Below, piece by piece: positions 26,074 through 30,571 of a stretch of 64,000 nt of DNA; the first letter of the stretch is position 1, and the number at the start of each line of letters is the position of its first letter. The stretch comes from Saccharothrix violaceirubra (GTDB lineage Bacteria; Actinomycetota; Actinomycetes; Mycobacteriales; Pseudonocardiaceae): contig NZ_JACHJS010000001.1 of NCBI RefSeq assembly GCF_014203755.1, forward strand, positions 4,216,001 through 4,280,000, read 5' to 3'. The notes beneath the pieces are model-generated. The model did no database searches and had not been told where the DNA came from. It saw only the letters and a program-made list of their open reading frames with translations. Made by a program: the position numbers and the translations under genes.

Positions 26074-26979
26074 ATGAGCCGGTCCTACGACGTCTGCCTG
26101 TCCTTCGCCGGTGAGCAGCGGGCGTATGTCGAGGAAGTCGCACGTCTGTTGCGGGCCGGTGGGGTCGAGGTCTTCTACGACCAGTTCGAGACCGCCGACC
26201 TGTGGGGGCGTGACCTGGCCGTCCACCTCGACGACGTGTTCCGGCACCGGTCTCGTTATTGCGTTCTTTTCGCCTCCGCCGATTACGCGCGGAAGATGTG
26301 GACCTCGCACGAGCGGGCCAGTGCGCTCGACCGGGCGTTGCGGGATCGGGACGACTACCTGCTTCCGGTGCGGTTCGACGACACCGAGATCCCCGGGCTG
26401 CGGCGGTCCACCGGGTACCTCGACGCCCGGCGGCTCTCGCCCGGGGAGATCGTGGCGGCCCTGATCAAGCGGATCGGTGCCGGGGACTCGCTTGCGGTGC
26501 CGTGCACGATCCTCGCGGTTCGGGGATCGGTCGATGTGCGGCGGCTGTTCGACGACGCCTCGCGGGAGTGCGGCATCGCGGTCGACGTGGTCGGTGAGCA
26601 CGGCGTCGTTCCGCTCGACCGGGTGTCCACGGGGGACGTCGTCCGCCGTCTGGTGCCCGTCCTCGCCGAGTCGCGGCTCGTGGTCGGTGTCCACCGGGGC
26701 GAGGTGCCCGAAGGGGACTCGGTCGATCTCGCCGTCGCGTCCGCCCTGGTCGAGGTGACCGACGCCGAACGCGCGGTCGTGTTGTCGCAACGGGTCTACG
26801 ACGAGGTGGTGCGGGGGTCCGGGCGTGCGCGGCAGTACGTCGGGGTTCCGTTGGCGTCCGGTGGCACGGCGTGGGTCCGGGGGTCCGGTCGGCAGGGAGG
26901 GGCGACAGGGGCGCGGGTGACGGTGATCGGCGACAACGCGGTCATCGGGCAGGTGGGTGACCGCCATGACCACCGTTGA
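26074..26979 (+). CDS. TIR-domain protein with cyclase-like middle domain and C-terminal GQVGDR motif
   Basis: 301 residues, no signal peptide. About 1-135 is a bacterial TIR domain: YDVCLSFAGEQRAYVEEVA, VEVFYDQFE, LWGRDLAVHLDDVF and KMWTSHE, where Glu80 matches the catalytic glutamate of TIR NADases, then YLLPVRFDDTEIPGL. About 145-265 resembles a degenerate nucleotidyl-cyclase fold (VVGVHRGEV... AERAVVLSQRVYDEVV) of the kind seen in other actinobacterial effector proteins; this is inference. The last residues, VIGDNAVIGQVGDR, closely match residues 53-67 of the next protein and could mediate pairing. The gene overlaps the ATPase gene. The likely role is an NAD-consuming or signalling effector. 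Confidence 0.88.
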   Translation: MSRSYDVCLSFAGEQRAYVEEVARLLRAGGVEVFYDQFETADLWGRDLAVHLDDVFRHRSRYCVLFASADYARKMWTSHERASALDRALRDRDDYLLPVRFDDTEIPGLRRSTGYLDARRLSPGEIVAALIKRIGAGDSLAVPCTILAVRGSVDVRRLFDDASRECGIAVDVVGEHGVVPLDRVSTGDVVRRLVPVLAESRLVVGVHRGEVPEGDSVDLAVASALVEVTDAERAVVLSQRVYDEVVRGSGRARQYVGVPLASGGTAWVRGSGRQGGATGARVTVIGDNAVIGQVGDRHDHR

Positions 26980-29041
26980 GGACGAGCAGCCCGAGGACGA
27001 CAAGAAGCCCAACGAGGCCGCGCAGGACAAGGCCAACGACCCGGGCACGTCGGGGCGTTGGCGCAACTTCAGCGCGGCCACCGACGTGGCTTTCGCCGCG
27101 CTGCTCGGCGGCGGCACGGCGAACCTCTTCCTCGGCGACGCCACGGTGGGCCAGGTCGGCGACCGCGCCACCGCGTCGGGCCACCTGGGCGCGGTGGTGC
27201 GCAGCGGACCCGTGCCCCGGGCCGAACTCGACCGGATCCGGTCGTCGTTCGTGGCGCCCAGTCGCTACCACGACCTGCGGGCCGCGTTGGACGACCGGTT
27301 CCTCGTGCTCGTCCACGCGCGGCCCGGGTCGGGGCGGACGACCGCCGCGTTGCGGCTGCTCGACCATCTGTGCCCCGGCGGTGTGCGCAAGCTCGACCCG
27401 GACGCCGACCTGAAGACCCTGCGCGACAAGGACTTCGAGGACGACCACGGCTACCTGCTCGACTCGCTGGACCCCGCCCAGGCCCGCGAGCTGCGCCTGT
27501 TCCAGCTCGACCGGCTGGCCCGGCTGATGGAGGAGCGCGGCTGCCGGCTGGTCGTCATCGTGGACGAGACGACCGTGCTCCCGGTGCGCGACGTCGGCCA
27601 CCTGGTGGTCGCCGACCTCGGCACGGTCGGGCACGAGGCGTTGGTGCGCAAGTACCTGGACGGCGACGCGGCCGTGCTCGACCGCGACGACGTGCGTGAG
27701 GTCCTCGCGGAACTGTCGCCGGACCTGCCGTGCCGCGCCGTGGTCGACCTCGCCGGGCTGCTGCGCGACGTCGCCGCCGGACGGGCCGACGTGGCGGCGG
27801 TGCGCGAGCGCTACTCGCGGGCCGGGGAGGACGCGTTCGTCGAGTGGTTCGAGTCCGGTCACGACACCGACCAGCGGGCGTTCGCGATCGCGTTGGCGGT
27901 GTTCAACGACCAGCCCGTGCAACTGGTGTCGGAGGCGGGCGCGCTGCTCGCCGACATGATCAAGTCCGTCGAGACGGCACGGCGGTCCGACCGGACGCGG
28001 CCGGTGTTCGGGGTGCGGTTGGACCGTCGGGTCGCGGACGCGCGGGCGGTCCTCGTGCGCGGCACCGAGGACACCGAGTTCGGCCGGGTACCGGTCACCA
28101 AGATCCGGTTCACCGACGACCGGTACGCGTACCGGCTGTTGCGCCACCTGTGCGACCAGTACGACCAGGCCTACGACATCGTTCGCGAGTGGTTGCTGCG
28201 GCTCGGCGAGATCCCCGGCGACCAGGTGCGGATCAGGGCCGGGATGGCGGCGGGCCTGTTGAGCCTGCACGACTTCATCGGCATCCACGACCGCGTGGTG
28301 GACGAGTGGGCGCGGTCCGGCGACGAGAACGCGCGGTGGGCGGCGGTGGCCGCGTTGCGCATCCCCGGCCAGGACGCGGGTCTGGGCCGGGTCGTCTACA
28401 AGATGCTGCGCGCGTGGTCGCGGCCGGCGCAGCCGCAGGCGCTGCGGTTGACGGCCGCGCAGGCGCTGGGCAGTGCCACGGCGATGAGCCCGGCCGCGTG
28501 CCTGCGGCTCCTGCGCCAAGCCGCCCGGTTCGCGGACTGGGACATCGCCTTCGCCATCGGCGAGAGCATGTGCGAGCTGTACTGCCGGGTCGAGGACCCC
28601 GCGCAGGTGCTCGGCGCGCTGGTCCGCTGGACGCACGACGACGAACACCCCAAACGCCGGGAGACCGCGCTGCTCGCGGTGCTGATCATGTCGTCGTCCG
28701 TCGTGCGCCCGGACGAGGGCGGCGGCCGGTGGCCGGCGTTGATCTGGGACGCCGAGCACGTGCCGGAACGGCGGGCGCAGGTCGTGCTGTTGTACGCGCG
28801 GATGCTCCAGGCCGCCGAGTTCATGCTGCGCGGCTACCTGGCCCTCAAGGGGTGGGTCCGGTCCGCGCAGCGGGACGCCACGTTGCGCACGCCGCTGGCC
28901 CGCCTGCTGCACGAGGTCGGCGCGGCGTCCGACGAGACCGACAGCGTCCGCCACTACCTGGAGACCTGGCGGGACGAGCACGACGGACCGGCCGACGCGG
29001 TGCGCGACGTGCTGCGGCACTTCGATCGAAGAGGGGCGTGA
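26966..29041 (+). CDS. STAND-like P-loop ATPase with helical-repeat C-terminus, partner of the TIR protein
   Basis: 691 residues. About 1-45 is acidic and disordered. Residues 53-67 (NLFLGDATVGQVGDR) carry the motif shared with the TIR C-terminus. The ATPase core has a P-loop HARPGSGRTTAAL (117-129), where Arg replaces the usual Walker A lysine, and Walker B RLVVIVDE (194-201). The remainder is helical, with possible HEAT/TPR-like repeats (around 430-600), as in STAND/NLR proteins. I prefer ATG 26966; an in-frame GTG at 26957 is possible. Either overlaps the TIR gene, so the two are coupled. The expected role is sensor or scaffold controlling the TIR effector, from architecture and context only. 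Confidence 0.75.
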   Translation: MTTVEDEQPEDDKKPNEAAQDKANDPGTSGRWRNFSAATDVAFAALLGGGTANLFLGDATVGQVGDRATASGHLGAVVRSGPVPRAELDRIRSSFVAPSRYHDLRAALDDRFLVLVHARPGSGRTTAALRLLDHLCPGGVRKLDPDADLKTLRDKDFEDDHGYLLDSLDPAQARELRLFQLDRLARLMEERGCRLVVIVDETTVLPVRDVGHLVVADLGTVGHEALVRKYLDGDAAVLDRDDVREVLAELSPDLPCRAVVDLAGLLRDVAAGRADVAAVRERYSRAGEDAFVEWFESGHDTDQRAFAIALAVFNDQPVQLVSEAGALLADMIKSVETARRSDRTRPVFGVRLDRRVADARAVLVRGTEDTEFGRVPVTKIRFTDDRYAYRLLRHLCDQYDQAYDIVREWLLRLGEIPGDQVRIRAGMAAGLLSLHDFIGIHDRVVDEWARSGDENARWAAVAALRIPGQDAGLGRVVYKMLRAWSRPAQPQALRLTAAQALGSATAMSPAACLRLLRQAARFADWDIAFAIGESMCELYCRVEDPAQVLGALVRWTHDDEHPKRRETALLAVLIMSSSVVRPDEGGGRWPALIWDAEHVPERRAQVVLLYARMLQAAEFMLRGYLALKGWVRSAQRDATLRTPLARLLHEVGAASDETDSVRHYLETWRDEHDGPADAVRDVLRHFDRRGA

Positions 29042-29042
29042 C

Positions 29043-29999
29043 GTGGAGGTCGTACAACGGAAAGCGGTCGAGCGGTCGGCGCTGCGCAAGCTCAACCCGG
29101 CGGGGTCGGAGCACACCGCGGTCGTCTACCTCACCAAGCGCGGCGAGTACGAACGGGTCGTCGGGCGGCTCACGATGGCCGAGATCTGGTTGCGCACGCC
29201 CAAAGAGCTGTTCACGGTCGCCACCTCGCCGCAGGAGGACACGTTCGACCTGCGACTGCCGTCGCGCGAGGAGGCGTTCTCGTTCGCCGCGAGCGTGCGG
29301 GCGACGTGGCGGGTGACCGATCCGGTCGCGGCGGTCAAGGCGCAGCTCACCGACCCCTCCCCCGGTGTCCGGCGGCTGTTGGAGGAACGGCTGCGCGAGC
29401 ACACGCGCGGGTTCGACGTGGAGGGCAACGCCGAGGCCGAGCGCCGGTTCAACCTGGACTACGCGGACCGGGCGGTCGTGGTGTCCGACGCGGTGACGAT
29501 CACCGGGTGCACCGTCGTGCTGAACCTGGACGAGGCGACGACCGCGCACATCGCCGACCGCACGCTGGTGGTGCGCGAGCGGCAGAAGCACGAGTACGAC
29601 AAGGAACGCGACGAGCGCAAGCGCGAGCGGGAACGCGAGGACACCAAGCACGACCTGGCGCTCCAGGAAACCCGGATGAAGCAGTACGCGGACGCCTTGC
29701 AGTCCGGCGACCACAACGCGCTCGCGTTGCTGCTGGCCGGGCACGGCGAGGACGCGAACGCGGTCGTGCAGATCATCATGCAGCAACGCCAGCTCGAGCA
29801 CTCCGCCGCCCGCGAGGTGCTCGATCGACTGCTCGCCGCGAACCTGGTCAACCGCAAGGACGTCGGCCGGATCATCGAGAGCGCGGGCACCGCGCTCATC
29901 GGCGGCGTGTCCGACGTCCGGACGCCCAAGTCCGTGGAGTCCGCCCGTCCCGACCGGGAGACCGACCCGGACGACGAGGGCTTCGAGGAGGGGACATGA
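29043..29999 (+). CDS. SPFH/band-7-domain protein
   Basis: 318 residues. About 50-180 reads as an SPFH (stomatin/flotillin/band-7) domain: FSFAASVRATWRVTDPVAAV, VRRLLEERLREHTRGFDVEGN and YADRAVVVSDAVTITGCTVV. About 180-225 is a highly charged coiled coil (RERQKHEYDKERDERKRERE), and the C-terminus is acidic. A sequence around 283-293 (TALIGGVSDVR) is faintly like the GQVGDR motif of the two upstream proteins. There is no N-terminal transmembrane segment, so membrane contact may come from the next protein. The GTG start is 1 base after the ATPase stop, and the end overlaps the next ATG. SPFH proteins form oligomeric membrane scaffolds; its role in this operon is unknown. Confidence 0.75.
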   Translation: MEVVQRKAVERSALRKLNPAGSEHTAVVYLTKRGEYERVVGRLTMAEIWLRTPKELFTVATSPQEDTFDLRLPSREEAFSFAASVRATWRVTDPVAAVKAQLTDPSPGVRRLLEERLREHTRGFDVEGNAEAERRFNLDYADRAVVVSDAVTITGCTVVLNLDEATTAHIADRTLVVRERQKHEYDKERDERKREREREDTKHDLALQETRMKQYADALQSGDHNALALLLAGHGEDANAVVQIIMQQRQLEHSAAREVLDRLLAANLVNRKDVGRIIESAGTALIGGVSDVRTPKSVESARPDRETDPDDEGFEEGT

Positions 30000-30526
30000 C
30001 GCCGTTGGGCGGGGTGCCGCTGTTCGGCGACCTCGTCACGGCGTTGGACGGGGTGCTGGTGCAGGTCGGCCTGCCGCCGTGGTTCGCCGCGCTGCTGGAA
30101 CTGGTCGTCGTCGTGGTCGCGGCGTACCTGCTGCTGTGGCTGGTCGTGCGGCACGTGCTGCCGTGGTTGGGCCGGGTGCTGGTCGGCCCGCTGCTGCGGG
30201 TCGTGGAGGGCGTGCGGGTGCTGCTGCTCCTGCCCGACCTGGGCGCGACCCGCCTGGCTCGCCGGTTCGGGCGGATGCCGCCGGAGGCGGTGTACGCCTA
30301 CGGCGCGGTGGTGATGGGCCTGGTCGACGGTCTGGGCTCGGTCGTGCGGAAGGCCCTGCCTGTGCTGTCGCTGGCCCGGCGCACGCCCCGGGCCGTCCTC
30401 TTCGCGGCGCTCGCGCTGGGTTTCGTGCTGTGGAACGCCGGTACCTGCGGACCGCTCGACGAGGGGTGCGTCGAGCCGGTCGCGCAGTGGACCACGTCCC
30501 TGACCGCCTGGTTCGAGCGCCAATGA
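29996..30526 (+). CDS. Membrane protein of the TIR-ATPase-SPFH operon
   Basis: 176 residues, unrecognised family. A long hydrophobic helix at about 28-60 (FAALLELVVVVVAAYLLLWLVV), a second hydrophobic stretch around 62-80, a third at about 97-120 and a last near 138-152 suggest three or four membrane segments. The ATG overlaps the SPFH stop (ATGA), and a bidirectional terminator follows, so this is the last gene of the operon. It may be the membrane anchor or pore partner of the SPFH protein; that is inference. Confidence 0.75.
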   Translation: MTPLGGVPLFGDLVTALDGVLVQVGLPPWFAALLELVVVVVAAYLLLWLVVRHVLPWLGRVLVGPLLRVVEGVRVLLLLPDLGATRLARRFGRMPPEAVYAYGAVVMGLVDGLGSVVRKALPVLSLARRTPRAVLFAALALGFVLWNAGTCGPLDEGCVEPVAQWTTSLTAWFERQ

Positions 30527-30528
30527 CC

Positions 30529-30571
30529 GCGCCGGCCCGTCGTCTGGGGGAGGGAGACGGCGGGCCGGCGC
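30529..30571. terminator. Bidirectional terminator hairpin between TIR operon and sulfatase/ABC operon
   Basis: An 11-bp stem (30529-30539 with 30561-30571) continues after one mismatch into a further 5-bp stem (CGTCT/AGACG) around a purine loop. It starts 3 bases after the last plus-strand stop and ends 5 bases before the stop of the convergent ABC gene, so it ends both operons. Confidence 0.85.

Follow-up and report, generated by a model that had tools for sequence, protein, structure and literature searches.

A four-gene operon of Saccharothrix violaceirubra joins a TIR protein, a STAND ATPase, an SPFH protein and a membrane protein in a candidate NLR-like signalosome

BASS NLR-effector pairs have been described mostly in filamentous actinobacteria, with TIR domains as occasional effectors (Dyrka et al. 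2020; PMC7889193, PMC8086366, PMC12261475). In the accessible portions of these papers, the effector gene lies next to an NLR-like gene, and a short motif at the C-terminus of the effector matches one at the N-terminus of the NLR. The operon reported here has this same arrangement. Unlike the pairs described in those portions, however, its effector is a TIR domain plus a degenerate cyclase, not BELL, its STAND protein is nSTAND3/HEAT-like, and an SPFH protein and a membrane protein are added. There are ten BASS families, and family likeness was compared here with one BASS3 peptide only. A second group of described systems consists of the VMAP, iSTAND and MoxR-vWA conflict systems with their effector-associated domains (Kaur et al. 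2020, 2021; PMC7159879, PMC8195603). As far as the available text of these papers goes, shared features are cNMP cyclases (some of them inactive), TIR, Band-7 and HEAT domains, paired adaptor elements and occurrence in multicellular actinobacteria. In addition, vWA genes, instead of or besides CRP-type genes, were found near 13 of the 32 relatives of the operon that have a single cyclase-like protein. The systems differ, within the same text, in that Band-7 is here a separate conserved gene beside the STAND gene and the effector has a terminal motif. Searching the four operon proteins with Pfam, we recognized no ternary core of MoxR, vWA and VMAP/iSTAND at the locus.

AVAST type 5 (Avs5) resembles the operon in its nSTAND3-type NTPase, its repeat C-terminus and its NAD-type effector domain, but the part of the source that was available describes an effector fused to the STAND protein (PMC12931631), whereas here the effector stands apart from the STAND protein and has an SPFH protein and a membrane protein as partners. 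Pfam found no effector domain fused to our STAND protein, and the TIR domain is encoded by its own gene. Thoeris and other TIR defence systems have the NADase-type TIR fold in common with the operon, which also gave a weak match to the ThsB profile (2.1e-5). In contrast to Thoeris, the TIR partner here is a STAND protein, and neither Pfam nor PADLOC matched any of the other three operon proteins to a ThsA-type partner. A published description of the four-gene combination was not recognized in the literature outside most subscription journals and bioRxiv.

The operon occupies positions 26074..30526 of the window, the stretch of 64,000 nucleotides that was analysed, and consists of four plus-strand genes for a TIR protein, a STAND ATPase, an SPFH protein and a small membrane protein, as seen in Table 1. 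The genome that carries it, from a soil actinobacterium, is 7.35 Mb in a single contig. Genes 1 and 2 overlap by 23 bases (14 from the alternative ATG start), a gap of 1 base separates genes 2 and 3, and genes 3 and 4 share an ATGA overlap, exactly as the first-pass annotation had stated for an operon of overlapping or abutting genes. The four identities that it had assigned were borne out by the ORFs, the domain matches and the relatives, and the structure models back the TIR and SPFH folds. It had also claimed that a terminator closes the operon. A strong hairpin is indeed present downstream, but it has no U-run.

Table 1. Positions in the window of the operon genes and of the features within and beside them
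Feature	Position	Strand	Basis or remark
Gene 1: TIR protein, 301 aa	26074..26979	+	ORF; TIR_2 3.7e-16; model pLDDT 85
TIR domain, aa 4-135	26083..26478	+	Glu80 codon 26311-26313
Degenerate class III nucleotidyl cyclase-like domain, about aa 142-270	26497..26883	+	Foldseek, CYC profile, residues
Effector-side motif VTVIGDNAVIGQVGDR, aa 282-297 of TIR protein	26917..26964	+	
Gene 2: STAND-type ATPase, HEAT-type C-terminus	26957..29041	+	ORF; alternative ATG start 26966
Sensor-side motif TANLFLGDATVGQVGDR, aa 54-70 of STAND counted from GTG	27116..27166	+	
P-loop PGSGRTT of STAND	27323..27343	+	Arg replaces usual Walker A Lys
Gene 3: SPFH/Band 7 protein, long helix, helical C-terminus	29043..29999	+	
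Gene 4: small membrane protein, 176 aa	29996..30526	+	Predicted TM aa 33-51, 61-79, 133-151
17-bp hairpin without U-run, between operon and convergent ABC-transporter gene	30529..30571	+	

The gene 1 product is laid out as a TIR domain, a degenerate class III cyclase-like domain and a C-terminal motif, and its structure model matches both TIRs and class III cyclases. The TIR fold fills aa 1-138 of the model and is close to an NAD hydrolase structure, and Glu80 of WTSHE80R aligns with WTNYE of 7uwg/7uxu. The first-pass annotation had proposed structure prediction as a check on the catalytic fold of the TIR domain, and both the NADase-type fold and Glu80 were found. NAD cleavage is the putative activity of this domain. 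For the cyclase domain, Foldseek matched Ma1120 (4wpa_B, E 2.1e-4) and also AC9 (7pdf); these matches come without ranges, and the domain was placed by inference, with the TIR domain occupying aa 1-138. The CYC profile matches the gene 1 protein (E 1.4e-6), and a profile of 19 cyclase-like relatives matches the class III cyclase 5d0g (E 5.7e-8). Both metal-ligand positions are lost, as neither aligned position is Asp. Comparison with the relatives supports the view that the cyclase domain within the TIR protein is a relic. Five further loci with cyclase-like genes are present in the same genome, and the regions retrieved around them revealed no partner of the STAND, SPFH or membrane-protein kind.

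Relatives of the STAND protein (39 matches) were found in Lentzea, Saccharothrix, Umezawaea, Actinokineospora, Amycolatopsis, Nocardia and others. The nSTAND3 domain was matched by 20/31 STAND relatives (E <= 0.01) and HEAT_2 by 14/31, while the STAND protein of the operon itself, with an E of 0.043 for nSTAND3, fell short of the cut-off. The Arg at the Walker A Lys position is nearly invariant in the close STAND family. By single-chain structure model and fold match, gene 3 encodes an SPFH fold followed by a long helix. Pfam Band_7 was not matched by the gene 3 protein itself but was matched by 11 of 43 relatives, and hydropathy predicted no N-terminal TM segment in it. Three TM segments were predicted in the gene 4 protein.

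Conservation was examined in 60 loci, made up of 19 from GTDB contigs, 40 stretches around STAND matches (the stronger half, approximately, of 89 places) and this operon. Since the loci were chosen through STAND, the counts describe STAND neighbourhoods. Conservation of the gene order, another check proposed in the first-pass annotation, held in other genomes, and the SPFH gene accompanies STAND in 57/60 loci. A gene 4 homologue follows the SPFH gene in 27/60 loci and was missed in 33/60, including two of the eight TIR loci. It is very improbable that the clustering of the genes and the similarity of the motifs described below are those of unrelated genes that are neighbours by chance. The flanking beta-lactamase and ABC-transporter genes, which do not travel with the operon, would suit that explanation, but it was rejected because the order is recurrent in these 57 loci and the motif pairing stands well above controls. 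Homologues of the two flanking genes lie far apart in relatives from the genus and, therefore, no empty site can be defined.

The upstream protein has a cyclase-like domain in 59/60 loci and, by the TIR profile, a TIR domain in 8/60. It is a single cyclase-like protein in 32 loci, a tandem cyclase-like protein in 9, a SARP-type protein with Trans_reg_C/BTAD domains in 9, a TIR protein in 8 and a SEFIR/TIR protein in one (L108; Pfam SEFIR/TIR_2). Upstream CRP-type genes occur in 19 of the 32 single cyclase-like loci and in all nine tandem loci (two each), compared with 0/8 TIR loci and 0/10 SARP or SEFIR loci. The difference between 28/41 cyclase-like loci and 0/18 TIR, SARP and SEFIR loci gave a Fisher value of 3.4e-7, calculated on rows that are not independent owing to common ancestry. 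Thirteen of the 37 CRP-type genes were scanned, and all 13 match cNMP_binding. The metal residues Asp1 and Asp2 and the Arg were each present in 13/13 cyclase-only rows versus 0/32, 1/32 and 2/32 TIR-fused rows, respectively. The Asp regex gave false positives in TIR proteins, and the residues of the TIR-fused proteins were taken from alignment rows. Judged by regex and by eye, all ten proteins of the SARP or SEFIR type likewise have a degenerate cyclase part. In a quick tree, the TIR loci form one branch (SH-aLRT 99) and the SARP loci mostly one branch. The simplest story suggested by these sequences is that cyclase plus cNMP receptor is the widespread form, and that this output was replaced by TIR, SARP and SEFIR domains; the direction of replacement rests on midpoint rooting and decayed residues. 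The SEFIR/TIR protein at L108 represents a separate capture of a TIR-family domain. TIR is one among several kinds of output that a STAND-SPFH platform carries, and its other versions look cyclase/CRP-based or transcription-factor-based.

In another possible explanation, the operon is a module for signalling in stress or development, not for immunity. STAND activation would then alter second messengers or transcription, by way of cNMP to CRP, directly through a SARP-type factor or, in the TIR clade, through an NAD-derived signal, and cell death would not be the purpose. The CRP-type genes upstream of cyclase-like loci and the nine proteins with Trans_reg_C/BTAD domains speak for such a module, and defence genes went unrecognized around the operon and in the scanned flanks of its relatives. 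Enrichment near defence genes, a further check proposed in the first-pass annotation, was unsupported. The flanking genes look like housekeeping genes and not like a defence island. PADLOC (E <= 1e-5) was run on 20 flanking genes, namely 5 around this operon and 15 of the 27 listed for seven TIR relatives, and the matches in 5 of these 20 look generic (ABC ATPase, HTH, methyltransferase-like and similar). Even so, we consider a pure signalling role unlikely. The distribution is patchy, with STAND relatives in 76 of the 390 genomes of the family, the TIR domains are close to an NAD hydrolase structure, the STAND protein is related to nSTAND3, as in Avs5, and a second TIR-family (SEFIR) domain was captured at L108.

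The TIR protein ends in ...VTVIGDNAVIGQVGDRHDHR and the STAND protein reads ...TANLFLGDATVGQVGDRATAS near its N-terminus, where GDATVGQVGDR matches the C-terminal tag GDNAVIGQVGDR of the TIR protein. Pairing of the two motifs was scored in 59 operons, L081 being left out for lack of an effector. The mean tail-to-head similarity was 43.8 within the own operon, 36.8 with another operon of the same clade, 24.4 with other clades and 19.8 elsewhere in the own STAND protein; common ancestry contributes to these motif-pairing figures. The 99th percentile of the control was exceeded in 37/59 operons and in 5/8 of the TIR clade. The Saccharothrix violaceirubra pair scored 43 against a 99th-percentile threshold of 31.4, and ranked 4th among the 59 pairs and 9th within the TIR set of 18. 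When operon labels were permuted among 32 cluster representatives, 0/20000 permutations reached the observed sum, although only 13 of these 32 effectors ranked their own STAND protein first. Within the TIR clade, 1/20000 permutations reached the observed value (18 pairs, with 10 of the 18 pairings inferred). Pairing was weak in the SARP and SEFIR loci (1/10 above the 99th percentile of the control) and the tandem loci (3/9), and also in 3/11 loci of the VDA-type clade and 3/8 TIR loci. The codons for the six common residues GQVGDR differ at 3/6 positions between the TIR-protein and STAND copies and, therefore, a fresh duplication of the motif was ruled out.

These findings bear on the proposal in the first-pass annotation that the TIR protein is recruited homotypically. 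The paired motif provides a sequence basis for recruitment, but the likely recruiter is the short terminal motif and not the TIR domain itself. Similarity to the single published BASS3 peptide that was compared is weak, with shuffle p values of 0.03 for the STAND motif and 0.28 for the TIR motif. The core tetrad of RHIM/PP-type motifs is (I/V)-Q-(I/V/L)-G. The copies here read G-Q-V-G and, in a PDB search, the motif profile found no RHIM chain, its five matches looking like chance; RHIM membership was rejected. The missing RHIM chain would also suit an alternative in which the paired motifs are non-amyloid docking peptides, either a small folded element of the effector-associated kind or a pair of copies, each of which binds the SPFH lattice. 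The motif type shifts jointly in both partners between clades, and the strong differences between types agree with docking, as does the known principle of paired effector-associated domains in the accessible part of PMC8195603. We find docking peptides improbable, however. Both motifs are short, Gly/Asn/Asp-rich and beta-prone, they fall in stretches of low model confidence, and their placement at the effector C-terminus and the sensor N-terminus is like that of BASS motifs in the available portion of PMC7889193.

The reading that we lean towards is an NLR-like signalosome in which a STAND protein senses, a motif recruits the TIR protein, SPFH and membrane proteins form a scaffold, and TIR has replaced a cyclase output. 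The STAND/HEAT protein would detect a trigger and oligomerize. Judging from the matching sequences, its N-terminal motif may recruit the TIR protein through the C-terminal motif of the latter, probably by amyloid-like (beta-arch) templating. The TIR domains, brought together, would become active and cleave NAD+, so that the cell is killed or arrested or a signal is made. The SPFH protein itself shows no obvious anchor in the membrane; together with the small membrane protein it would make up a membrane-bound scaffold for the complex, and scaffolding of the signalosome at the membrane is probable. In the TIR clade the cyclase output appears to have been replaced by TIR; most other family members keep the metal ligands, many of them beside CRP-type receptor genes. 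Immunity may be the outcome.

More tentatively, the operon and its relatives may represent an undescribed class of NLR-like signalosome. A STAND-SPFH-membrane platform would carry a plug-in output protein with a cognate assembly motif, and at least three swaps would have exchanged this output among a cyclase feeding CRP regulators, a SARP transcription factor, a TIR in one clade and a SEFIR/TIR protein in a second clade. Every swap would have gone along with a decayed cyclase active site and a missing CRP gene. Prion-like signal assembly would take place on the SPFH cage as its membrane hub. One compact operon joins NLR-like sensors, prion-like motif pairing, second-messenger cyclases and SPFH membrane scaffolds, which are usually studied apart. 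The relatives form a natural series that varies in its output alone. This makes it testable whether one sensor platform can be switched from signalling by cyclic nucleotides to cleavage of NAD, and whether immune-type assemblies are hosted by SPFH cages. The sister forms appear to drive transcription, an observation that fits signalling as well as immunity.

A further paired terminal motif, judged by sequence, is found at a second site in the S. violaceirubra genome (L169). There, the cyclase-like protein carries the terminal motif ...VFMAGRDVAQH..., and the product of the small gene that follows it ends in ...VYQAGRDIIGR. The accompanying CRP-type gene matches cNMP_binding (4.6e-15). Neither a STAND nor an SPFH gene was seen near this pair.

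CRP-type genes also accompany the tandem cyclase-like proteins of relatives, with two of them lying upstream in all nine such loci. A possible explanation is that each cyclase is paired with one receptor. At ten loci (L024, L027, L031, L034, L037, L039 and L075-L078), the cyclase-STAND-SPFH operon is preceded by a vWA gene, one further protein and a DA1-like gene; Pfam confirmed vWA and DA1-like in L034 and vWA in L031.

The SEFIR/TIR locus L108 was placed far from the TIR clade in a quick tree and is apparently a separate capture of a TIR-family output.

Features at the compared loci and in the window
Feature	Position	Strand	Remark
CRP-type, cyclase-like and small next gene	L169:10505-12424		near contig end
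Tandem cyclase-like proteins	L088, L091, L092, L094, L101-L104, L107		upstream of STAND
Second Band_7/flotillin-type gene	L032:5316-6263	+	Nocardia; Pfam-recognised; upstream of operon
SEFIR/TIR_2 domain	L108:7413-8855	-	on degenerate cyclase part
STAND P-loop	window 27323-27343		Lys replaced by Arg

The P-loop Arg is nearly invariant across the close family of the STAND protein, and the distant members L086 and L087 read GWGKT.
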